The position numbers and the translations under genes are program-made. Shown here piece by piece: positions 601 to 11,983 of a stretch of DNA of 12,338 nt. The notes under the pieces are model-generated. The model did not search any database. It was not told the origin of the DNA and worked only from the letters and a program-made list of their open reading frames with translations. Origin of the DNA: Desulfobacterales bacterium (GTDB lineage: Bacteria > Desulfobacterota > Desulfobacteria > Desulfobacterales > QNYZ01); the NCBI GenBank assembly GCA_029938515.1, contig JAOZUU010000029.1, positions 1-12,338 of the forward strand, written 5' to 3'. Positions within the stretch are counted from its first letter, which is position 1; every line of letters starts with the position of its first letter.

Positions 601-1734
601 TTATTCTTTCGGAGTTCCCAGGACGGCCGCCATCAGCGCGGTGTCCATGGGTTCTCCGGCTGCGAGGCGCTTGCGATATTCGATGAAATCGATAGTGTCC
701 TGGCCGGTAATCTTCTTGGTATTGAAGGCATTGAAGCCCAGGAAGGCTTCACCAGACATGTTTGCTGCCAGCCAGTGGCGGTTGATCACCTTGGTTTGAT
801 CCCAGAAAAATTTCTTCTTCAAACGGATCCCTTCAATGCTCTTGATCAGGCATCCGGGAAACAGATTGGTATAGGTCCAGATAACTCTGTCAATCTCCTT
901 GTCGAGCAGTTCGAAATCGATCGTGGCTTCTTTCAAATAGGCGCGTGCCTCTTTGGCGGCTTCACCGGTTTTATACTCGCCGTACACCAGCTCGCCGTCG
1001 GCAACATAGGAATCGATATGCACAGTGGGGTTGCGCATCCACTTGCCGTTGTCCTTGATAACCGGCAAACACTTGGAGATAACGCCAAGGCGATACATTT
1101 TGTAGGCGCTCCACATCTCGCAGGAGACACAGTTCCACATGGCCAGCTCCATGGGCAGCATCCACGGCAGGAAATCAGTGCTGCCGCCGTCCGGGGCGCT
1201 GCCGTGTTTGGCGCCTGCCTGGCCAAATATCGCCAGGTCACTGGAAATGGTAATATCCGTGGCCATACCGATTTCCTGACCACCGGCTACACGCATGCCG
1301 TTGACCCGGCAGATGGTCGGCTTCTTACAGAACAGGATGGTGTCGACCATGGTGTTGAACAGATCCATGTAAAGGCCGTATTCATTAGGCCGTTTGGCAT
1401 AGTATTCGGCATACTCTTTGACGTTGCCGCCGGTGCAAAAAGCCTTGTCGCCAGCACCGGTAAATACACAGGCCACCACCGAGGAATCGGCCGAAGCCCG
1501 GTGAAAACCGGCAATCACCGCTTTGACCATCTCCGTGGTATAAGAATTGTACTGGTTTGGGTTGTTCAGGGTGACCCAAGCCGAGTAGAGTCCGTCTACC
1601 GCGTTGCCCTGAGGGTCGCGTATTGGTTTTTTCTCAAAAATTACGCCAGGGGCCTGGCTGGAAAAGATATCGTCACTCCACAGGTGATGGTCTTTGTGCC
1701 CGGATTCTCGAGGAAGCCAACTTAAATCGCTCAT
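601..1734 (-). CDS. oah: 6-oxocyclohex-1-ene-1-carbonyl-CoA hydrolase (ring-opening hydrolase, Oah/BamA)
   Basis: Crotonase-superfamily enzyme of 377 residues, the usual length for this family. It adds water to 6-oxocyclohex-1-ene-1-carbonyl-CoA and hydrolytically opens the ring, giving 3-hydroxypimeloyl-CoA. It is cytoplasmic, with no signal peptide or membrane segment. The oxyanion-hole segments are AFCTGGN (residues 98-104) and VNGMRVAGGQEIG (144-156). The N-terminal stretch around SDLSWLPRE and the Gly/Asp-rich PDGGSTDFLP region are typical of Oah and not of ordinary enoyl-CoA hydratases. The ATG at 1734 has a GGAG site 9 bases upstream. It follows had by 54 bases. This gene (bamA) is the standard marker for anaerobic aromatic degradation through benzoyl-CoA. 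Confidence 0.96.
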   Translation of the reverse strand: MSDLSWLPRESGHKDHHLWSDDIFSSQAPGVIFEKKPIRDPQGNAVDGLYSAWVTLNNPNQYNSYTTEMVKAVIAGFHRASADSSVVACVFTGAGDKAFCTGGNVKEYAEYYAKRPNEYGLYMDLFNTMVDTILFCKKPTICRVNGMRVAGGQEIGMATDITISSDLAIFGQAGAKHGSAPDGGSTDFLPWMLPMELAMWNCVSCEMWSAYKMYRLGVISKCLPVIKDNGKWMRNPTVHIDSYVADGELVYGEYKTGEAAKEARAYLKEATIDFELLDKEIDRVIWTYTNLFPGCLIKSIEGIRLKKKFFWDQTKVINRHWLAANMSGEAFLGFNAFNTKKITGQDTIDFIEYRKRLAAGEPMDTALMAAVLGTPKE

Positions 1735-1788: not shown

Positions 1789-2862
1789 TTAAGGAACCAT
1801 GATAGGACGCTGGATGATCTTACGCTGATGGGCCATCTCAAACACCTCGTTGATGGAATCCAGCGGGAAGGTTTTGACAAACGGCTTGAGATCCATCTTG
1901 CCGTCCAGGATCAGATCGACGACCGGTCTATAATATTCAGGTATACATCCCCAGTTGCCCCGCGCTGTGGCATTGAAAGCCATCAGGTTGGACAAACGGA
2001 TGTCCGCCGTGTCGAGGGTGAAGCCGACGATGGACAGGTGGGCGCCGAAGGTTAAAAGCCCGTAGGCGGTCTTCTGTCCAGCGGCGGTGCCGGAGGTCTC
2101 GAAAATCTTCAGATGGGTAGTCGACCGACCCGTCTCCTTGGCCACGCCGTAGACCTTTTTGCGAAGGTCCTTGAAGGGGATGTCCTTTACATTAAAAGTC
2201 GCATCCACATAGGAAGATAGATTTTCGAGCTTCAGCGGATCCACGTCAATGGCTACCACCGCGGCACCGAAGCTTTTGGCAAGCAGGGCACCAAAACCGC
2301 CCACGCCGCCTACACCGATAAACACCGCCAGGTCTTTCTTGGTGAGACCCGCTTCGATAATTGCCTGATAGGGGGTGGTGATGGCATCAGCAACTACGGA
2401 AAGTTCTTCCAGGGTGACGTCTGTTGCGCCGATTGGCTTCATATTCTCATCGACGGGAATCTTGCACAACTGTTTGGCCGGTACCACAATATGGCTGGCG
2501 AATCCACCCTGGATGTCATTGCCCGGCATTTTCTGGGTCCTGCAGATATTGCCGCGGCCTTCCCTGCAGGACTCACATTCGCCACAGGGCATTACCGCCG
2601 GAACCACGACTGCGCATCCGTTCCATGCCTCGGCACCAGGGCCGGTCGCCTGGACGATACCGCTGATTTCATGTCCCAGAGTCAGCGGTAAGTCCGATTT
2701 GATGGGAACACCGTCATAGAAGAAACCTAAATCCGTGTGGCACACACCGCAACCGCTAATTTTCAGCAGAACTTCCCCGGCTTTTGGCTCAGGGAGGGGT
2801 GCTTCCACACGTTCCAACGGTTGATTGGGGTTGACCATCTGCCAGGATACCATTGTTGTCAT
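1789..2862 (-). CDS. had: 6-hydroxycyclohex-1-ene-1-carbonyl-CoA dehydrogenase (Had/BamQ)
   Basis: Zinc-dependent medium-chain alcohol dehydrogenase of 357 residues. It oxidises 6-hydroxycyclohex-1-ene-1-carbonyl-CoA to the 6-oxo compound with NAD+, between Dch and Oah. The catalytic zinc site is visible as Cys38 in GCGVCHTD and His64-Glu65 in GHE. A structural zinc site is formed by Cys93, 96, 99 and 107. The Rossmann motif GVGGVGGFG lies at about 183-191. The ATG at 2862 has AAGGAG 8 bases upstream. The substrate is assigned from overall resemblance to Had and from its position between dch and oah; the general alcohol dehydrogenase class is certain. Confidence 0.95.
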   Translation of the reverse strand: MTTMVSWQMVNPNQPLERVEAPLPEPKAGEVLLKISGCGVCHTDLGFFYDGVPIKSDLPLTLGHEISGIVQATGPGAEAWNGCAVVVPAVMPCGECESCREGRGNICRTQKMPGNDIQGGFASHIVVPAKQLCKIPVDENMKPIGATDVTLEELSVVADAITTPYQAIIEAGLTKKDLAVFIGVGGVGGFGALLAKSFGAAVVAIDVDPLKLENLSSYVDATFNVKDIPFKDLRKKVYGVAKETGRSTTHLKIFETSGTAAGQKTAYGLLTFGAHLSIVGFTLDTADIRLSNLMAFNATARGNWGCIPEYYRPVVDLILDGKMDLKPFVKTFPLDSINEVFEMAHQRKIIQRPIMVP

Positions 2863-3018: not shown

Positions 3019-3786
3019 TCACCTGTTTTTCCACTCGGGACGGCGTTTTTCTTCAAAACTTTTAATGCCTTCAAGGGTGTCTTCGGTTTTCATTAACTGG
3101 TTGAGAAACATATTATTGACACTGTCCATAGCGTCATCAAATGGTATCGCCACGTGTTGGTTGACCGCCTTTTTGTTGAGCCGGAGGATCAGCGGACTGG
3201 CGTGCTGAATTTCTTTGGTCAATGTGGTCCACCCTTCTTCAAATGCGTCATCGTCGAAGACATCGCAGACAACTCCCATCTGCTGCATGGCTTCTGCGCT
3301 GTAGCGCCTTCCGGTCGTACAAATTTCGATAGCCCGCGAAGGTCCTACCAGGTGGGGCAAACGGACCGCTGCATAGGGCGGCAGAAAACCCAGCTTAATC
3401 TCCGGCTGGCCGAATACAGCCGATCTGGCGGCCACAACCATATCGCAGGCAATGGCGACCTCCATTCCACCTCCAAGACAGGCGCCGCCCACGGCGGCGA
3501 TGGAGGGAACGGCGAGGGCATGAATCTGCCTGAGCAGCGCGTCGAAGATCCGAATCATGTCCGGTGCAAGATCAGGCTTGTGATCAAGGACTTCCACACC
3601 GGCACACCAACTGCTCCCCTGGGCGGCAATGACCACGCATTTTAAATCGGCATCCTTGTTCAGGTCAGCCAATACAGAGGTCAACTCCTGCATCATATCC
3701 ATGTTCAACACATTGTGTTTCGGACGGTTGAGTGTAATTCGGGCTATGCCGTTTTCTTTTATTAATTGATGATACGTAAGCTCCAT
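3019..3786 (-). CDS. dch: Cyclohexa-1,5-diene-1-carbonyl-CoA hydratase (Dch/BamR)
   Basis: Enoyl-CoA hydratase/isomerase family protein of 255 residues. It adds water to the dienoyl-CoA made by benzoyl-CoA reductase, giving 6-hydroxycyclohex-1-ene-1-carbonyl-CoA. Oxyanion-hole segments are SSWCAGVEV (58-66) and GGACLGGGMEVA (100-111); the FGQPEIKLGFLPP region (125-137) follows. The ATG at 3786 has GAGGA about 8 bases upstream. The 175-base gap to bamF (3787-3961) holds an AT-rich stretch with a TATACT box, but I see no convincing matching -35. The stop codon TGA lies in a weak hairpin (near-palindrome 3006-3021) without a U-tract. Position between the reductase genes and had supports the specific assignment. 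Confidence 0.94.
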   Translation of the reverse strand: MELTYHQLIKENGIARITLNRPKHNVLNMDMMQELTSVLADLNKDADLKCVVIAAQGSSWCAGVEVLDHKPDLAPDMIRIFDALLRQIHALAVPSIAAVGGACLGGGMEVAIACDMVVAARSAVFGQPEIKLGFLPPYAAVRLPHLVGPSRAIEICTTGRRYSAEAMQQMGVVCDVFDDDAFEEGWTTLTKEIQHASPLILRLNKKAVNQHVAIPFDDAMDSVNNMFLNQLMKTEDTLEGIKSFEEKRRPEWKNR

Positions 3787-3961: not shown

Positions 3962-4834
3962 TCATGGGAGTGCCCTTTTAGTAGAAGTATTTTTCTTGTT
4001 TCCTTTGCTGCCCGTTCGTAAAATCGTTCGTTTTTCCATAGGTAGTGGCGGCGGCACCGGATCGCCGACAATCTCGGTGACTGCTCCAAAGCGGGAAGGA
4101 CAGGCGTTCAGGCAGGTGCCGCACTTGATGCACTTGTCCTGATCGATGACATGGATCTGGCTCTTGCCGCCTTCGATGGCCTCCACCGGGCATCTCTTTG
4201 AGCAGATCATGCATGCCTGGCATTTTGCTGGATCGATATAGTACGAAACCACATCGCCAAACAGCCGCTCGATCTCCTCAAGGCTGAAATGGTTGTCGTA
4301 GTCGGCTGCATCCTCCAGACGGGCGGTCAGCTTGGCGTGTTTTACAATTTTTATATATGGGGCCAGCCGGGTGACCTCGGCCAGGGCCACCCCAAGTTGT
4401 GCCGGCGCAATTTCGTCATCTTGCCCTATGGGGCCAAATTCTTTAATCGTTTTACAGAAATCGTCTACTGTTGCGGCAAACAGGTTGCCTTCTCCGCCGG
4501 ACATGAAGGCAATCTGTAGCCGCTGCGGATTCAAGCCGATATGTTCCAAGATTTTTTTGCAAAGCGAGGTCAGGTTCGCGGCATGGTAATTGCCGTGGGT
4601 GGTGTAGTTACATTCACCCAGCCGGCATCCGCCGATGAAGACACCATCCGCTCCTTTGGCAAAGGCATGCAGGATGTGTGCCATATCCACCCGGCCCGAG
4701 CACATCAAGCGAACCATCCTCATATTCGTTGAGTATTGTAGTCTGGAAACTCCAGCCAGGTCAGCCGCCCCGTATACTCACCAGTGACAGACAAAGCCGA
4801 TGATTCTGGGGGTGAATAATTGTCCTTTGCTCAT
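3962..4834 (-). CDS. bamF: BamF, MvhD-type Fe-S subunit fused to a 2[4Fe-4S] ferredoxin domain; selenoprotein with in-frame TGA
   Basis: Predicted 290-residue electron-transfer subunit of the class II benzoyl-CoA reductase. The start is ATG at 4834 with GAGGAG upstream, 21 bases after bamE. Codon 19 is TGA (4778-4780), read here as selenocysteine. The sequence on either side is GFVCHW, then Sec, then VYGAADLAGVSRLQY, which matches the MvhD family, where this residue is Cys or Sec in a CxxC. Other conserved cysteines are 45 (CSGR), 70 and 75. Residues 1 to about 140 are the MvhD domain, which binds [2Fe-2S] in the family. The C-terminal ferredoxin domain has Cys205, 208, 211, 215 and Cys235, 238, 241, 245. 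The last 25 residues form an unusually basic tail. Calling the gene from ATG 4723 would lose the redox centre. Its likely partner is BamE. Confidence 0.92.
4730..4780 (-). promoter_or_regulatory. bamF: SECIS-like hairpin at the bamF selenocysteine codon
   Basis: The TGA and next four bases (4780-4774, TGAGTAT) are exactly complementary to ATACTCA at 4736-4730, giving a 7-bp base stem that includes the UGA. Inside, CTGGA (4755-4751) pairs with TCCAG (4747-4743) around a GTT loop that lies 28-30 bases after the UGA. Bacterial SECIS elements lie directly 3' of the UGA with a G and U in a small apical loop at about this distance, so the layout fits. The fold was found by eye, and no energy was computed. 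Confidence 0.66.
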
Positions 4835-4855: not shown

Positions 4856-7800
4856 TCATTTTGTTTCTATTGATTCGGGAATCAGTGCATCGATCTGGCT
4901 CAGGATCTCCCGGTCATTGAAATGTTTCAGGACAATGGCCCCGGTGGGACACACGGCGTTACACAACCCGTCACCTTTGCAGATCACCGGGTTAACGACA
5001 GCCTTTTGTCCCTGCTTGGTTTTGCGCAATTCAATGGCACCATAGCTGCAGACAGCGACGCAGGCGCCGCAGCCTATGCAGCTTTTCTCACTCACTTCAC
5101 AGACTGCTCCCGATACGGTAACTATATCATTAGACAGCAGGGTCAACGTCCGGCCTGCCGCCCCATAGGCCTGGTTGATAGCCTCGGGGAGATGCTTGGG
5201 ATAGTGAGCCATACCGCAGAGAAAGACGCCACTTGTGGCAAATTCCACTGGCCGCAGTTTGACATGGCCTTCCTGGAAAAAGCCGTCCGGCCCCAGCGGT
5301 ACCTTGAACAAGCTTGCAATCTCCTGGGCGCCTTTTGGCGGGATAACAGCTGCGGCCAGAACCAGCAGGTCGGCGTCAAAAGCCAGCTTTTTACCTAAAA
5401 TCGGATCTGTCAGCACCATCTGCAAGACGGCTCTGCCATCTCCGGCTTCACCTGCGTCCACCACAGGCGGATCTTCCGGCGTCCAGCGAATGAACCGCAC
5501 GTCCTGGTGAGAAGCCTCGCGGTAGTATGTTTCGTTGAACCCGTAAGTGCGCATATCCCTGAAGGCAATGGCGACATCCATCTCCGGGTTAATAGCCTTC
5601 AGTTTCAGGGCATTCTTGACACTATGACTGCAGCACACCCGGCTGCAGTAGTTGCGGTCTTTGTTGCGGCAGCCTATGCACTGGATCATCACCACGCTCT
5701 GGGCCCGGGTGACTGTCTCATCTTCCCTTGCGATTCGTTCACCCAGTTCAAGTTGCGTCACCACGCGCTCATCTTTCCCGTACAGGTACTCGGTGGGTTT
5801 GTATTCTTCAGCACCGATGGCAATGACAGCAGCACCGTGCTCGATGACCGTTGCACCCCTTTCAGAGGTGACCCGGGTAACGAAATTGCCCACGTAGCCG
5901 GTGGCCTCGGTGATGACAACTTCCGTATACACATGGATCTCCGGATGGCGGTAAATCCTGCGGACGAGATCGGCAAGATCGGCCTGGACGTCCTTGCCGT
6001 CCAGGGTAGAATAAAGTTTTCGCGCTGTGCCGCCCAATTCGGATTGCCGTTCGAGCAGGTAGACCTCGTGGCCCTGATCGGCGATGGAAAGCGCGCAGGT
6101 CATGCCTGCCAGGCCACCCCCAACTACCAGAGCCGCCTTGGTGACCGGCAGATCGAATTCCTGCAAGGGTTCGAGGTCGATAGACCTGGCGACCGACATG
6201 CGGATGATATCCTGGGCCTTGACTGTTGCAGCCTCCTTCTCCCGTGCGTGGCACCAGGAGCAGTGCTCCCGGATATTGGCCATATCCAGATAATATTTGT
6301 TTATGCCCGCTTCACGTAGAGTGTCCTGAAAAAGCGGTTCCAAAGTCCGGGGACTGCAGGCTGCAATAACCACCCGGTTGAGTGATTTCTCTTTTACGGT
6401 GTCAACGATCTGTTGCATGGAGTTGGTTGCGCAGGAAAAGAGCTGTTCCTGGACGTGGACCACATTGGACAACGTCTGGGTATAGGCGACAGTGTCTGGC
6501 ACATTCACCACCCTGCTGATATTGGCCCCGCAGTGGCAGACAAATACGCCGATGCGCGGCTCTTCGTCCGTGTTGTCCTTTTCTGATGGATAAACTCTTT
6601 CCCTGGTCAGTTTGCCTCGACGGTAGTTCAGTAACTCGCCGCATTGGGACCCGGCGGCACTGGCGGTAAAGACCGATTCGGGGATATCCATGGGCCCCTG
6701 GAAGGCTCCGCTGACAAAGATCCCCGGACGAGTAGTGGCCATGGGGTTGGCGGAATCGATTTGACAGAATCCGTGGCAGTTGACCTCAATGCCGAACTTC
6801 TTTGCCAACCCCTGATAATCCGCTGGCGGGTTCAGCCCAACAGAGAGCACTACCATGTCAAAGGATTCCTCTTTGACCCCTTCTGATTCGGTGGCGTAGC
6901 GGACAATCACGTTTCGGGTTTCCGGGTCTTCACCGACGATGGAGGCATAGCTGCGGATAAACCGGACGTCGGGAAGCTTCTGGGCCCGCTGGTAGAAGGT
7001 TTCGAAGCCCTTGCTGTAGGAACGGACATCATTGTGGAAGATAGTGCAGGCAGCTTCACTATTGTGATCCTTGGTCAGAATTACCTGTTTCTGGGCGTAG
7101 GTGCAGCAGACAGCCGAGCAGTAGCTGTTGTCTCCTTCGCTATCCCGCCGGGAGCCGACGCACTGAATCCAGGCGACCTTGTGAGGATGCCGCATGTCCG
7201 ATGCGCGCAGGATCTCGCCTTCGTACGGACCGGTGGCGCACATCAACCGTTCGTAGTCCATGCCGGTCACCACGTTCTGGAGTCTGCCGTAGCCATATTC
7301 GTCTCTTACCTTCGGATCGTAGACCTCATAGCCGGGGGAGAGAACGATGGCTGCCACGTTCAGTGTCATCTTCTCCGGTATCTGGTGGAGATCAATAGCA
7401 TCGTTTTTACAAACCGCTTCGCAGATACGGCATTTCTTTTCCTTTAAGTACAGGCAGCTTTGATCTATGTACGTGATCAGCGGGATGGCCTGGGCAAAAT
7501 AGATATGCACGGCCTTGTTGTTGGAGATCTCCTGGTTGTATTGATCGGGATACGCCACCGGGCAAAACTCCACGCAGGTGCCGCAACCTGTGCACTTGTC
7601 TTCGATGATGTAGCGCGGTTTTTTGGTCAGTCCGATGGTAAAGTTACCTGCCTGTCCTTCAACACTGTCAACTATGGTGTAAGTGAGAACTTCGATATTG
7701 GGATGCCGGCCGACCTCGACCAGTTTCGGTGAAAGAATTCACATCGAGCAGTCGTTGGTCGGATACGTCTTGTCCAGCTGTGCCATGTGGCCGCCGATGG

Positions 7801-7954
7801 CCGGCCCCTTTTCGATCAGATAGACCTTAAAACCGGCTGTGGCCATATCCAGTGCAGCCTGAATACCGCTGATTCCGCCGCCGACTACCATGACGTCGCC
7901 AAAATTTCCTCGACCCGAACCCTCGCGGTGTTGCATCATTAATTGGTTTTCCAC
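4856..7954 (-). CDS. bamE: BamE, double HdrA-like flavin/Fe-S protein; selenoprotein with in-frame TGA
   Basis: One 1032-residue reading frame interrupted only by TGA at codon 72 (7739-7741), read here as selenocysteine: NDCSM, Sec, [15 protein letters not shown]. HdrA proteins carry Cys at this place. First module: FAD motif VVGGGISG near residue 23, Cys121/124/127/131, Cys167/175/178/182, and the HdrA-type cluster Cys265/279/283/284. Second module: CHCGAN near 473, FAD motif VVGGGLAG near 610, and a second HdrA-type cluster (Cys759, 770, 774, 775). The C-terminus has Cys959/962/965/969 and a final site reading CKGDGLC, where the second Cys is Asp995. HdrA homologues are flavin-based electron-bifurcating subunits; supply of electrons to BamBC is inferred. 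The chosen start is GTG at 7954 with AAGGA 8 bases upstream; ATG at 7939 is possible. It ends with TGA at 4856, followed soon by in-frame TAG. Confidence 0.92.
7706..7741 (-). promoter_or_regulatory. bamE: SECIS-like hairpin after the bamE selenocysteine codon
   Basis: Fifteen bases after the UGA, CTGGTC (7723-7718) pairs with GGCCGG (7711-7706) in a 6-bp stem with two G-U pairs, closing a six-base loop GAGGTC (7717-7712). The loop contains GGUC, as does the loop of the E. coli fdhF SECIS. The loop lies 22-27 bases from the UGA, within the range known for bacterial SECIS elements. It was found by eye; pairing is seen directly and function is inferred. Confidence 0.72.
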
Positions 7955-7995
7955 AGTTTGTTTCCTTATTCGGTTACTTCATTTTCCTGGATGCC

Positions 7996-8163
7996 TTATT
8001 TGATCCCGGCCTTGTTGGGAATGCCGGCGGTGTCCCGGGCCACCTTTTTCATACGCGGATCGTAGCTAAGGTAGTAGCCAGAAAAATAGAGTAGTTCCAT
8101 CTCTTCGAAATCCGCTACTTTATCAACTTGTTCCTGTATCCTTTTGTTGCAAGCTTGTAAGCG
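7996..8163 (-). pseudogene. Decayed fragment of a second bamD-like gene (HdrD/CCG-domain remnant)
   Basis: The 209-base gap between bamC and bamE holds a 55-codon open stretch directly after the bamC stop and in the same frame, ending at TAA 7996. From the ATG at 8100 it reads MELLYFSGYYLSYDPRMKKV and then ARDTAGIPNKAGIK. This matches residues 144-175 of the intact BamD in this window at 24 of 32 positions by my count. The first Cys of the CCG motif, Cys152 in BamD, is Tyr here (TAC). The N-terminal ferredoxin region and everything after the first part of the CCG domain are gone. A few codons after the stop (7995-7966) read GIQENEVTE and may echo the BamD C-terminus EIKDITE, but that is weak. 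No ribosome-binding site is evident. Confidence 0.8.
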
Positions 8164-8703
8164 TTATTTGAAATCTTTTAAGGAGGACATTCTGGTCACA
8201 GCATCCATGATTTTCTGCATACCGTGCGTTTCGACCAACGATGCCAATCCGATATCAAGCTTCTCTTGTGGCTCCACAATCTCGACCTCTTCTTCACGTT
8301 CCTCCAGGGTCAGCGCGTCGGTGATGCACCACTTGACGCACATGGGTTCGTCTTCGCCTTCACACATGTCACACCTCAGGGGCAGGCCAGAGTCGGGTTC
8401 CTTGAAGTCATCTCTGGAAGGGCAGGACGCCCGGCAAAAGGCGCACTCATCGTACTCCTTGCCGTCGATGATATATTTGTCCCGCCCGGCGCATTCCGCT
8501 CCAACGGACTCACCGGCGTAAACCGGCACGTAGATGTCTTCCAGCGGATGGCGCACCACGCGGATGCGGGCCCGGGCTGGGTTGTTGCTGCTATACATGG
8601 GCAGGGAGTGAAAGGCCGAACATATCATCTCGCAGGCCCGGCAGCCGTTGCACAGGTCGGCATTGATCTTGATAGCTTTGATGATCTTTTTTTCAGTTGC
8701 CAA
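8164..8703 (-). CDS. bamC: BamC, polyferredoxin electron-transfer subunit of class II benzoyl-CoA reductase
   Basis: A 179-residue Fe-S protein of the HycB/NrfC type that forms the BamBC catalytic unit and passes electrons to the tungsten site of BamB. Cysteine groups are Cys18/21/24/28, Cys87/90/94, and Cys111/114/122/126, with Cys71 isolated. This suits the three [4Fe-4S] clusters known for BamC. The start is TTG at 8703, two bases after the bamB stop. It is chosen because a full AAGGAGGTG lies just upstream inside the end of bamB and no ATG or GTG is close by. The C-terminal 45 residues after the last cluster are acidic, then helical in appearance. Tight spacing indicates coupled translation with bamB. 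Confidence 0.94.
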   Translation of the reverse strand: MATEKKIIKAIKINADLCNGCRACEMICSAFHSLPMYSSNNPARARIRVVRHPLEDIYVPVYAGESVGAECAGRDKYIIDGKEYDECAFCRASCPSRDDFKEPDSGLPLRCDMCEGEDEPMCVKWCITDALTLEEREEEVEIVEPQEKLDIGLASLVETHGMQKIMDAVTRMSSLKDFK

Positions 8704-8705
8704 GA

Positions 8706-10715
8706 TTACACCTCCTTGTCGATTACGGCTGGGGTTGCCTGGGAAGGTGTATCCCCATTATCCGAATAGACGCCTCGTTTGACAAACTCTTCGTATACAT
8801 AGTCCAGTCCCAGATCGCGCAAGGTCTCTTCGGTGGGGATACCCTGCTCGTTCCAGCCCTTGAAGGCGTAGTAGGTGTCCAAAAGTTCCTTTTCCAGTTC
8901 CGGGAAGCGCTTTTTCCAATGGTTGGCAGGGGGCTTTTCGTCTTTTCTGCGCATGCCTCTTCGGGTGTTGATGGCACGCACCAAGGTGCGGTAGCGCTTG
9001 GCTGCCTCGGTCAAGGTTGCTTCGTCCATGTCTAAACCGACCCCTGAGGAGATGAGTTTCGGATAGTTGTGGATATGATAGGGCGGTTTGAGCGGAAATG
9101 ACGATAAACCGGCACACATTCCCAGGGCGTCGTCGATGTAGTGCATCCGTTCCTGCCAGTCCACGATATCGCAACACATTTCCGGTGTGGGATAGAAGGG
9201 AATCGACTTTTCACCGCGGAGTTCCCAGTCCAGGAAATATTGCTTGAATTTTTCGTCAGGTACCTGGAACCAGTCCTTGACGAAGGCCTCCCGCTCCTCC
9301 CGCGTGGGAAAAGGCGCTTGAGGGAACTGCCCTTCGATCTGGGTGATGTTCAGCTTCTCGCCGGTGGCGTACATGAGAAAATAAATAGGGTTGAGCATAG
9401 AGAGCTTCAGGGGCAGCTGCTCTTGCTTCTTGATGTTGTTGTGGGCGTATTTCTCGGCGCCGTTGCCGATCTGCCTGGCTGCCCAATAGGTACCGTTGGC
9501 CAGCACATCACCGATGCCCTCCCGCCGGACAATGTGATCCAGTAGCCAGTAAAACCGCCCTTCGCTGTCCTCGGGCATACCCGGGAAATCATCTTTGGTC
9601 AGGATACCGGCTTCCAAAAGCTCCAGGGCAAAGGCCATAACCTGCGGGGCAGAAAATCCGTCGACCCCGTGCTCGGTGGCACTCTGGGCGATTCCGAGGC
9701 CGAACGCCAGGTCCGAGAAAGCTGCCATGGTATAGGTCAGCTTGGAAAAGCATTTCATCATATACGTTGGCTTGCCCGGCGGCGAAATGGTTGCACCGCA
9801 GGTCATGGGGCAGTTGTAACAACTGATCAACCGCGTGCGCATCTTCTCCATGGTCTGGGTCCAGTCTTTGGCGATCTCCTCGGTCCAGAAACCTTTGCGG
9901 CGCTCCCGCGAATTTCCCCACATGAAATTCTCGGTATGCCATTTTTCATCGTGGATCTTCATCTCCTGGGGAGACCCCAGTATGGCCAAAATAGGCATGA
10001 CGCCGGGGATCGGATTTTCGTTGCGGAATTTGATGTAGTCCATCGCCTCGTTGCACAGCTCCATGAATTCAGCCGGACGGGACAGATGAATATCCTTGGT
10101 TCCCCGGACCACAATGGCCTTGACCCCCTTGTCGCCCATCACCGCTCCGATTCCACCCCGACTGGCACTGGAGCGACCTTGTTCGATGGAGGCAAAATAG
10201 ACCCTGTTCTCGCCCGCCATACCGATGGCAGCCACCTGGGCCTTTGGCTCCTTAAGTTCCTGGCAAATAAGTTCAGCCGTTTCAATGGCCCCTTTGCCTT
10301 TCAGATGAGAGGCATCGCGGATTTCGACCTTGTCGTCCTTGATCCATAAGTAGACCAGTTTGGGAGATTTTCCACGCAGGATCACCTTGTCATAGCCGGC
10401 ATATTTCAATTCAGGCGCCCAGAAACCGCCCATCATAGAGAACACCAGTAACTGGGTCTGAGGTGAGATAGTGGTGACGATGGTGCGGTTACAGCCGGTG
10501 GCCGGCGTGCCGCACAACAGACCGGCGGCGAAAATCAGCAGGTTGTCGGGTGAAAAGGCTTCCACTTCGGGCGGTACCCTGTCCCACATAATCTTGGCGT
10601 TGGTTCCCAAACCGCCCAGATACAATTGGCTGTCTTCGGGATTAGTTGATACCCGTTCGATATTGCTACGGGTCAAATCGATCTCTAGATTATAGCCTGT
10701 TTCTCCGTATCTCAT
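8706..10715 (-). CDS. bamB: BamB, tungsten-containing active-site subunit of class II benzoyl-CoA reductase (AOR family)
   Basis: A 669-residue aldehyde:ferredoxin oxidoreductase-family protein. BamB reduces the aromatic ring of benzoyl-CoA to cyclohexa-1,5-diene-1-carbonyl-CoA without ATP hydrolysis, using a W-bis-pyranopterin cofactor. The N-terminal AOR domain covers about residues 1-205, starting MRYGETGYNLEIDL and including RSSASRGGIGAVMGDKGVKA near 181-200. Ligands for the [4Fe-4S] cluster are Cys299, Cys302 and Cys306 in SCYNCPMTCG, and Cys534 in DDALGMC. No signal peptide is present, so it is cytoplasmic. The ATG at 10715 has GAGGAAAA upstream. No in-frame TGA occurs. Neighbouring bamC, bamE and bamF with dch, had and oah make the benzoyl-CoA assignment firm against other AOR enzymes. 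Confidence 0.95.
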   Translation of the reverse strand: MRYGETGYNLEIDLTRSNIERVSTNPEDSQLYLGGLGTNAKIMWDRVPPEVEAFSPDNLLIFAAGLLCGTPATGCNRTIVTTISPQTQLLVFSMMGGFWAPELKYAGYDKVILRGKSPKLVYLWIKDDKVEIRDASHLKGKGAIETAELICQELKEPKAQVAAIGMAGENRVYFASIEQGRSSASRGGIGAVMGDKGVKAIVVRGTKDIHLSRPAEFMELCNEAMDYIKFRNENPIPGVMPILAILGSPQEMKIHDEKWHTENFMWGNSRERRKGFWTEEIAKDWTQTMEKMRTRLISCYNCPMTCGATISPPGKPTYMMKCFSKLTYTMAAFSDLAFGLGIAQSATEHGVDGFSAPQVMAFALELLEAGILTKDDFPGMPEDSEGRFYWLLDHIVRREGIGDVLANGTYWAARQIGNGAEKYAHNNIKKQEQLPLKLSMLNPIYFLMYATGEKLNITQIEGQFPQAPFPTREEREAFVKDWFQVPDEKFKQYFLDWELRGEKSIPFYPTPEMCCDIVDWQERMHYIDDALGMCAGLSSFPLKPPYHIHNYPKLISSGVGLDMDEATLTEAAKRYRTLVRAINTRRGMRRKDEKPPANHWKKRFPELEKELLDTYYAFKGWNEQGIPTEETLRDLGLDYVYEEFVKRGVYSDNGDTPSQATPAVIDKEV
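8709..8717 (-). promoter_or_regulatory. bamC: Strong Shine-Dalgarno site that decides the TTG start of bamC
   Basis: The minus strand reads AAGGAGGTG, a near-complete match to the anti-Shine-Dalgarno end of 16S rRNA. Seven bases separate AGGAGG from the TTG at 8703. The site lies within the last codons of bamB and overlaps its stop. Confidence 0.85.
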
Positions 10716-10831: not shown

Positions 10832-11983
10832 CTACATTACTTTCTGAACGATTTCTGTAATATCTTTAATTTCCAGCAAGTCACCATATTCGAGGTTGAG
10901 GCGACTTTCCTCGAAGTTGGTAATGCAATATGGGCAACTGGTTACCAGCACCTGGGCTCCAGTTTGAACCGCCTGATTCAACCTGATGTCGGAAAATCTT
11001 TGGTCTTGTGGCGTGTCCATCCATATTCTCCCGCCACCACCACCACAACATAGGCTATCACGGCGTGATTCGGCCATCTCAACCAGTTCAAGTCCGGCTA
11101 TCCTGTTCAAGACAGTACGGGGTTGGTCATATATATTGTTGTGCCTGCCGAGATAGCAGGGATCATGATAGGTGACTTTCTTCTCAAATGGATGGCTTAG
11201 CTGGAGGCGCCCCTCATTGAGCAGTTCCAGTAAATATTGACTGATATGGACAACTTCAAAGTTGACCATGAATTCGGGATATTCGTTTTTAAAGGTATGG
11301 TAGCAGTGGGGGGACGAGACCAAAATTTTTTTTACCCCATTGTCGACAAAGGTCTTGATATTTTCCCTGGCCAGGGACGTGAACACCTGCTCACTGCCGA
11401 ACTTGCGGATACTTTCTCCACAGCAGTTTTCTTTGTTACCCAATATGCCGAAATCAACTCCTGCTTTTTTGAGGATATCGGCCGTGGCTACTGCAACCTT
11501 CTTCATTCTCGGATCATAACTCAGATAACAGCCGACAAAAAACAGCAACTCCATTCCTTCGGAATATGGTTTGACCGCGTACTCCTCTGCCCAATCCGCT
11601 CGTTTTTCCCGCTCTACCTGCAACGGATTCCCTTCTGAGATAAGGCTCGCTCTTGCCGTGCGAGCAGACTTGACAGATGCCGGGAAGACTTCATAGCTGG
11701 CGGCCACCCGCCGTAAAGAAACGCCGAGTTCAATCTGGTTTACTCCTCTTGGACATTGAGCTGGACATCTTCCGCAAGTGGTGCATCGCCAGATGTCTTC
11801 ACTGTCAATTTCGGTCAAACCAAAGGTGGCCTCACGTATGATTTTACGCATACTGAATCGCCTTACCTTGTTCCAGGGACAAACTGTGTCACACAAGCCG
11901 CACTGAAAGCAAAACCTCTGTGATTGTCCGCCGGCTTCTGCTATCTCTTCAACTACTTCTTTGAAAGGGGCAACTGTTTCCAC
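10832..11983 (-). CDS. bamD: BamD, HdrD/GlpC-type Fe-S oxidoreductase subunit of the Bam complex
   Basis: A 383-residue protein. The N-terminal domain is a 2[4Fe-4S] ferredoxin type with Cys25/28/31/35 and Cys67/70/73/77. It is followed by two CCG domains: Cys152, Cys187-Cys188 and Cys227, then Cys276, Cys312-Cys313, Cys350 and Cys353. This is the fused HdrC-HdrB plan of HdrD, GlpC and BamD. In the Bam complex it is thought to carry electrons between the HdrA-like BamE and BamBC. The start is GTG at 11983 with GAGGA upstream; an in-frame TGA lies seven codons before it and no ATG intervenes. It precedes bamB by 116 bases instead of following bamC, and a fossil copy occupies that other place. 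By eye its base composition is more AT-rich than that of bamB. Confidence 0.9.
   Translation of the reverse strand: METVAPFKEVVEEIAEAGGQSQRFCFQCGLCDTVCPWNKVRRFSMRKIIREATFGLTEIDSEDIWRCTTCGRCPAQCPRGVNQIELGVSLRRVAASYEVFPASVKSARTARASLISEGNPLQVEREKRADWAEEYAVKPYSEGMELLFFVGCYLSYDPRMKKVAVATADILKKAGVDFGILGNKENCCGESIRKFGSEQVFTSLARENIKTFVDNGVKKILVSSPHCYHTFKNEYPEFMVNFEVVHISQYLLELLNEGRLQLSHPFEKKVTYHDPCYLGRHNNIYDQPRTVLNRIAGLELVEMAESRRDSLCCGGGGGRIWMDTPQDQRFSDIRLNQAVQTGAQVLVTSCPYCITNFEESRLNLEYGDLLEIKDITEIVQKVM

Follow-up and report, generated by a model that had tools for sequence, protein, structure and literature searches.

Does the TGA at codon 72 of a bamE-like gene from a Desulfobacterales bacterium terminate translation, or is it read as selenocysteine (Sec)? 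The window that was analysed in this work is the whole stretch of 12,338 nucleotides of contig JAOZUU010000029.1, and the gene in question is located on its minus strand at 4856..7954, where it encodes a fused, two-half HdrA-type subunit of 1,032 residues within a putative benzoyl-CoA degradation cluster. The best overall explanation, which we hold with high confidence on the sequence comparisons described below, is that bamE is a full-length selenoprotein gene and that UGA-72, together with UGA-19 of the neighbouring bamF gene, is recoded as Sec.

The frame of bamE starts at GTG 7954, with AAGGAAA located upstream of the start, and ends at 4856 with a terminal stop that is TGA too. The single internal stop is the TGA at 7741-7739 (7739..7741, minus strand), which is codon 72. 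The chance of zero further stops over 1,031 codons is about 1.6e-18 for random sequence of the same GC content. The list of open reading frames (ORFs) of at least 80 residues contains bamE only as a 905-residue piece that starts at GTG 7573. The residues that flank TGA-72 are HdrA sequence and match solved HdrA chains (phmmer). The alignment of chain A of the Methanothermobacter wolfeii HdrA structure (5ODC) with BamE is gapless over BamE residues 22-124, and it places residue 72 on Cys197 (counted from residue 22 = 147). The sequence-only reading, which was made earlier from the letters of this DNA, had claimed a frame open save for one TGA, HdrA sequence on both sides and a TGA at an HdrA Cys position, and these claims are borne out. 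The UGA also falls on the Cys of the DC[SA]xC/U motif by which Sec-HdrA proteins are recognised. BamE scores 918.2 bits against NF040770, which needs 1100, and 708.5 bits against NF041778, which needs 1400; it is an HdrA homologue outside the groups of these two NCBIfam models.

The state of codon 72 in relatives was read via tblastn alignments. All 29 top-scoring loci of other genomes in the phylum (L023-L051) have TGA at column 72, as do 22 of the 24 loci of named records (L052-L075). The two exceptions are L068, which does not include column 72, and L075, a 36%-identical HdrA that has TGT. These 53 loci were picked by likeness to the Sec-type gene, so the share of TGA is no estimate for all BamE. 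The named carriers of TGA include Desulfobulbaceae UBA2775 (97% identical), Desulfobulbus sp. Tol-SR, Desulfoprunum benzoelyticum, Desulfosarcina widdelii, D. alkanivorans, and Desulfospira joergensenii. Two Desulfosarcina species whose records are titled complete chromosomes have TGA-72 and an identical downstream hairpin. TGA-72 is also present in metagenome-assembled genomes labelled Chloroflexi, Bacillota, Thermincola, and Bathyarchaeota, among others, and such labels may be wrong. Nineteen relatives (L076-L094) were deliberately chosen because they were listed without internal stops, and every one of them has TGC or TGT at column 72. Over the 100 readable loci of the 105 examined, window included, column 72 is TGA in 71 and a Cys codon in 29, and the check that had been proposed with the sequence-only reading, namely that homologues have Cys or Sec at this column, is passed. 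Three further HdrA-like genes of the draft genome to which the window belongs (L011, L013, and L022) carry UGA at the U72 column as well. These comparisons strongly support the recoding of UGA-72, which is very probably decoded as Sec. Extra stops in L101, L103, L104, and L105 and the second stop of L115 were also considered and rejected as Sec codons; they are terminal TGA.

One of the three genes of the same draft, L011 (G000:C259:853-3918), is a second Sec-type bamE. It is 67% identical to the window gene and adjoins a bamD piece on a short contig.

The bacterial selenocysteine insertion sequence (SECIS) element is a stem-loop located a short distance 3' of the UGA that exhibits a short apical loop containing G. 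A hairpin that fits this description is located at 7706..7723 on the minus strand. Its sequence, CUGGUCG-AGGU-CGGCCGG (7723-7706), forms a 7-bp stem with the loop AGGU, and its identification as a SECIS-type element comes from the fold and from comparative conservation. It starts 15 bases past UGA-72, with 22 bases from the UGA to the loop, and it dominates the predicted fold downstream of the UGA. The element and its position had been given correctly in the sequence-only reading, and the stem length of 6 bp that it gave is corrected here to 7 bp. No SECIS family appeared when the window was scanned against Rfam at E values up to 5. The sole match, to a snoRNA family, was rejected as chance at 17 bits against a 40-bit cut-off.

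Whether the hairpin is a SECIS was decided mainly from its conservation, which was evaluated at the level of codons. The sample consists of 65 Sec BamE-like loci that are at least 55% identical to the window, with the window excluded. The columns between 20 and 999 with the same amino acid in at least 90% of loci were selected, with Met, Trp, and stops excluded, and the share of the commonest codon was calculated for each of the resulting 472 columns. The mean share is 0.59 over all columns and 0.58 (standard deviation 0.16) outside codons 73-84. The hairpin codons are codons 78-83. Only codons 78, 79, 80, 82, and 83 reach 1.0 among the 472 columns, and codon 81 is in sixth place (0.969), tied with codon 290. 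The best non-overlapping run of six qualifying codons has a share of 0.72. Some of the 65 loci are close or identical (e.g. L039 and L072), so the sample was also thinned to 46 loci of less than 85% mutual identity, which gave 443 columns. Codons 78, 79, 80, and 83 alone are at 1.0 in the thinned set and codon 81 is eighth (0.956), while codon 82 leaves the set because less than 90% of its loci have Gly. The hairpin site of the 19 Cys BamE-like loci reads KF(V/I/L)EC.R, and the shares at columns 78, 80, 81, and 83 are 0.58, 0.63, 0.58, and 0.32. Conservation of the hairpin that exceeds the needs of the protein and is confined to the Sec forms is shown by these shares. The identical element is also present in Sec-type HdrA paralogues of 43-48% identity (L013 of the same genome and L100).

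The bamF gene, located at 3962..4834 on the minus strand, encodes an MvhD-like protein of 290 residues with a ferredoxin domain. It contains a UGA of its own at codon 19 (4778..4780, minus strand), which was overlooked in the sequence-only reading. The context of this codon is FVCHW-U-VYGAADLAG, and U19 (CHW-U) is aligned with the second Cys of the MvhD CNWC motif. Codon 19 is TGA in 46 of the 47 readable loci among the 53 examined (L023-L075), the exception being L075 with TGC. A SECIS-type hairpin with a 5-bp stem (CUGGA-GUU-UCCAG) is located downstream at 4743..4755 on the minus strand. In 49 Sec-type loci, no codons of bamF vary less than codons 28-30. All 250 cells of the stem are paired in 50 of the 52 distinct TGA sequences (two non-bam MvhD genes were excluded), and one pair exhibits a compensatory UA-to-GC change in two of the 50 rows (L029 and L085). 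Two other MvhD-like genes of the same draft (L016 and L017) likewise have UGA at the U19 column. The alignment and the hairpin suggest that UGA-19 of bamF is very probably decoded as Sec. BamF of Geobacter reportedly contains Sec as well.

Several observations weigh against the Sec explanation or parts of it. The folding energy of the bamE hairpin is ordinary compared to shuffled sequences (z of -1.1, 0.1, and -0.9 in three windows), and among five Sec-type relatives that were folded only L066 is unusual in energy (z -2.5). In L102 and L107, which are HdrA paralogues of the Sec type, the sequence downstream of the TGA has diverged. Double-sided changes are exhibited by none of the seven pairs of the bamE stem (22 of 71 sequences), where 98.6% of 147 cells are paired; one pair varies one-sidedly in four of the 21 distinct rows, and two rows break the loop-adjacent pair. 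This absence of double-sided covariation is due to the near invariance of the hairpin. The evidence beyond chance for the hairpin is thus comparative and not energetic. The selB, selD, and tRNA-Sec genes were not found over cut-offs in the draft genome of the window, which is 71.7% complete (3.23 Mb, 560 contigs). Lastly, the alignment is the one line of evidence for the role of U72 as a cluster ligand, which is likely and is considered below.

The Sec machinery that was identified in this draft is selA (612 bits). We assume that selB, selD, and tRNA-Sec are encoded in the unassembled part of the genome. In the genomes of nine named relatives, where selB and tRNA-Sec were sought, selB is over cut-off in all nine and tRNA-Sec is present in eight. 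The candidates below cut-off in the draft that were inspected, the best-scoring among them, were rejected. The tRNA-Sec candidate is tRNA-Ser(GGA) by ARAGORN, and the best selB match is a 598-residue ORF that looks like LepA by eye. Of the selD matches, also judged by eye, one beside a ThiM-like ORF looks like ThiL and another like an AIR-synthase-type protein.

What U72 may do can be considered from the architecture of BamE, which consists of two fused HdrA halves. The first half has U72 and is without the HdrA N-terminal domain. The second half has an N-terminal cluster domain (residues 464-618, aligned on 5ODC chain residues 2-156), and its reductase domain is without the DCSxU motif. The C-terminal ferredoxin domain also aligns with that of 5ODC. 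The M. wolfeii HdrA has Cys at this position and one HdrA per dimerising chain, whereas BamE has Sec and the pair fused. The relevant passages of one paper (PMC9012536) describe HdrA Cys197 as a cluster ligand donated across subunits by the partner copy, and tandem or fused HdrAs as dividing the Cys197-type and N-domain features between their halves. BamE exhibits the same split of features as the fusions in those passages, with its halves in the opposite order. U72 is located at the position of the cross-subunit ligand Cys197 and is therefore likely to be a selenolate cluster ligand.

The mechanism that we propose would begin with SelB and Sec-tRNA, which would bind the hairpin 15 bases past UGA-72 so that Sec is inserted at the position of HdrA Cys197; bamF would be recoded likewise at codon 19. 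U72 would then probably reach across to the N-terminal domain of the second half and donate a selenolate to its [4Fe-4S] cluster, which may lie on the path by which electrons leave the bifurcating flavin adenine dinucleotide (FAD). The [2Fe-2S] cluster of MvhD is the donor to the HdrA flavin in a passage of PMC6019823, and U19 would be part of the CxxC/U motif of such an MvhD-type [2Fe-2S] carrier feeding HdrA. In the complex behind the reduction of the benzoyl-CoA ring, selenium would tune or protect these clusters.

An alternative that accepts the insertion of Sec is that U72 acts as a free thiol/selenol, redox-active or protective, and is not a cluster ligand. All 20 aligned sequences have C69, the first Cys of the motif, which makes a CxxU redox pair possible. 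CxxU is also how the HdrA motif is given in the pertinent part of a 2026 review, with 1 in the column that was taken as the number of Sec residues (PMC13188914). However, the aligned Cys197 of HdrA is a cluster ligand from the partner copy (PMC9012536), and the halves of BamE complement each other as HdrA partner copies do. We consider the free selenol unlikely, at roughly one chance in a handful, and cluster ligation is preferred.

The reading of UGA-72 as a true stop is very improbable. It would make bamE a pseudogene, or a gene for a 71-residue peptide followed by a separate protein restarted at 7573, which is where a standard ORF caller does place the start of the 905-residue ORF. However, the TGA and the hairpin persist in dozens of genomes from several phyla with the frame intact on both sides. 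The restarted ORF would also forfeit residues 1-127, which include U72 and the GGGISG motif that we take to be FAD-binding. A variant code that gives UGA an ordinary sense meaning (Trp, Gly, or Cys) gains something from the UGA at Cys positions in several genes of this genome, but we regard it as extremely improbable. It conflicts with the termination of bamE, bamF, and the dienoyl-CoA hydratase-like gene with TGA. The eight window genes that were counted all use TGG for Trp and TGC/TGT for Cys, and internal TGA is found only in bamE and bamF among them, one in each; both of these TGA codons coincide with known Sec columns and are followed by a conserved hairpin. An error of sequencing or assembly in the window, which the fragmented draft of 560 contigs and 71.7% completeness could suggest, is a negligible prospect given the independent genomes, including the two Desulfosarcina complete-chromosome records, that have the TGA and the same hairpin.

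The surroundings of bamE are those of a benzoyl-CoA degradation cluster in the order bamD-bamB-bamC-bamE-bamF, followed by a dienoyl-CoA hydratase-like gene, had, and oah, all on the minus strand. The bam gene names are assigned from homology and linkage. The bamD gene (10832..11983), which encodes an HdrBC-like subunit and is placed upstream of bamB, is named in this way. The bamB gene (8706..10715) encodes a subunit of the aldehyde:ferredoxin oxidoreductase family that scores 229 bits against NF007354, under the cut-off of 868, and is also identified by linkage. The bamC gene (8164..8703) encodes an iron-sulfur subunit with weak ferredoxin-type matches and is linked to bamB and bamE in named relatives. 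The enoyl-CoA hydratase family gene (3019..3786) probably encodes dienoyl-CoA hydratase (Dch), with 153.9 bits against TIGR03189, under the cut-off of 292.5. The 6-hydroxycyclohex-1-ene-1-carbonyl-CoA dehydrogenase gene (1789..2862; TIGR03201, 473.6 bits, cut-off 338.65) and the 6-oxocyclohex-1-ene-1-carbonyl-CoA hydrolase/hydratase gene (601..1734; TIGR03200, 551.5 bits, cut-off 464.45) are both over their cut-offs. The bamB, bamC, and bamF genes are beside bamE in all eight loci L052-L059 and bamD in seven of the eight, as L053 begins inside bamB. An HdrA-type protein that adjoins bamB, bamC, bamD, and bamF is the linkage by which BamE of class II benzoyl-CoA reductase is recognised. The protein of the window is thus a putative BamE of a benzoyl-CoA-reducing complex, assigned from its genes.

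A remnant of an older bamD is located between bamC and bamE (7990..8107, minus strand), as judged from base matches to bamD. The stretch 8107-7990 matches the bamD that L056 has at that place in 96 of 118 bases (score 126), and it matches the upstream bamD of the window itself in 74 of 107 bases (score 45, with a maximum of 29 in 200 shuffles). It seems that the upstream bamD replaced a decayed bamD of the usual place between bamC and bamE.

The states of BamE and BamF were compared in 65 loci, window included, where both codons are readable and located on one strand within 5 kb. The states (BamE/BamF) are U/U in 47 loci, C/U in eight, C/C in 10, and U/C in none. Because state played a part in choosing the sample, the absence of U/C is the only noteworthy feature of these counts. 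A quick tree built on 94 rows, in which more distant HdrAs were included and support was given only by the Shimodaira-Hasegawa-like approximate likelihood ratio test (SH-aLRT), places the window in an all-U branch of 58 rows with the 97%-identical relative as its sister. The 19 Cys BamE-like genes fall together with two U genes in a single branch of 21 rows, and five changes of state are needed over the whole tree.

The two U genes, L111 and L112 (G007:C34 and G140:C44), are Sec-type bamE genes nested among Cys-type genes. They were compared to six Sec-type and seven Cys-type genes, the latter hand-picked. Their likeness to the Sec-type peaks at columns 66-89, with a weaker excess at columns 42-53 and little or none elsewhere, and it is possible that Sec was regained by local gene conversion. 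An additional Cys, nine residues past Cys72, is present at column 81 (KF.EC) of the Cys-type BamE of L076-L094; the Sec-type has Val there, within the hairpin codons.

A second TGA was identified in the bamE of two genomes outside the window, G024 and G361, which belong to different genera of one family. The double-TGA loci are L109/L125 (G024:C1:307421-310462) and L110/L126 (G361:C11:38278-41322), and both are in bamBCDEF clusters that have U72 and the bamF UGA. The second TGA is at column 475, the second Cys of the N-terminal domain VCHC motif, which reads VCY-U-GAN in these genomes. A 9-bp hairpin, GGGCGCGUC-GUG-GACGUGCCC or a near copy, is located 12 bases past TGA-475. Compared to shuffled sequences, the hairpins have z values of -2.5 (0/200 as good) and -1.25 (24/200). 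The third genome of this family that was examined, G062, has Cys at 475, which suggests a recent Cys-to-Sec change. A degenerate column-475 pattern was found only in G024 and G361 among 395 genomes of the phylum and among the 46 of their class, by an exact pattern that would miss variants. We give an even chance to the view that in some members of this family one BamE chain has U72 and U475 from both halves ligating the same [4Fe-4S] cluster, which with BamF U19 would place three Sec on one electron path. If codon 475 is decoded as Sec, two selenolates may be bound to a single cluster. Targeted and general searching met no double-Sec BamE or HdrA in the accessible passages of open-licence papers, and some archaeal FrhD/VhuD proteins carry multiple Sec residues according to a passage of PMC13188914.

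The findings in this work can be compared to the Sec proteins that have been reported. Sec-HdrA is represented by 16 bacterial members in a listing of 2006 (PMC1794560), and the section of a 2009 paper on Sec genes includes hdrA1, hdrA2, hdrL1, and hdrL3 of Desulfobacterium autotrophicum (PMC2702500). The Sec-HdrA of Deltaproteobacteria, Firmicutes, and methanogens belong to the same family as BamE. BamE is unlike them in having two HdrA halves fused and in being located inside a benzoyl-CoA reductase operon. Sec in MvhD/FrhD also predates the report of Sec-BamE, as seen in passages of the same two papers (PMC1794560, PMC2702500). These selenoproteins share the CxxU motif with BamF, which is unlike them in its extra C-terminal ferredoxin domain and its location in the bam cluster.

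A passage of a 2016 paper includes BamE of Desulfococcus multivorans (dmul_C24500/10) among five UGA/SECIS genes, and Sec BamF is not included in the list of five in that passage (PMC5109826). Desulfococcus multivorans is another organism, which was likened here by description; the nearest named relatives of the window are Desulfobulbaceae. Since Sec-BamE is in print for that species, bamE of the window is not new in kind. The sequence-only reading is thus supported in taking UGA-72 as Sec, with two corrections: it overlooked the UGA of bamF, and the tie between selenium and benzoate degradation at gene level, which it drew, is not new and was already given by BamE in that passage (PMC5109826). 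This work usefully adds the breadth with which UGA-72 is conserved, the hairpin that is frozen at the synonymous level, and the Sec that pairs with it in BamF.

The Sec of BamE is widespread in the sample and is no peculiarity of Desulfococcus multivorans, and it is joined by Sec in BamF wherever both are readable. Standard ORF calling splits or truncates bamE, so this electron-bifurcating subunit is easily missed in metagenomes. The enzyme concerned is a major anaerobic degrader of aromatic compounds. If U72 and U19 are cluster ligands, the supply of selenium would directly affect the path that electrons take in benzoate degradation.

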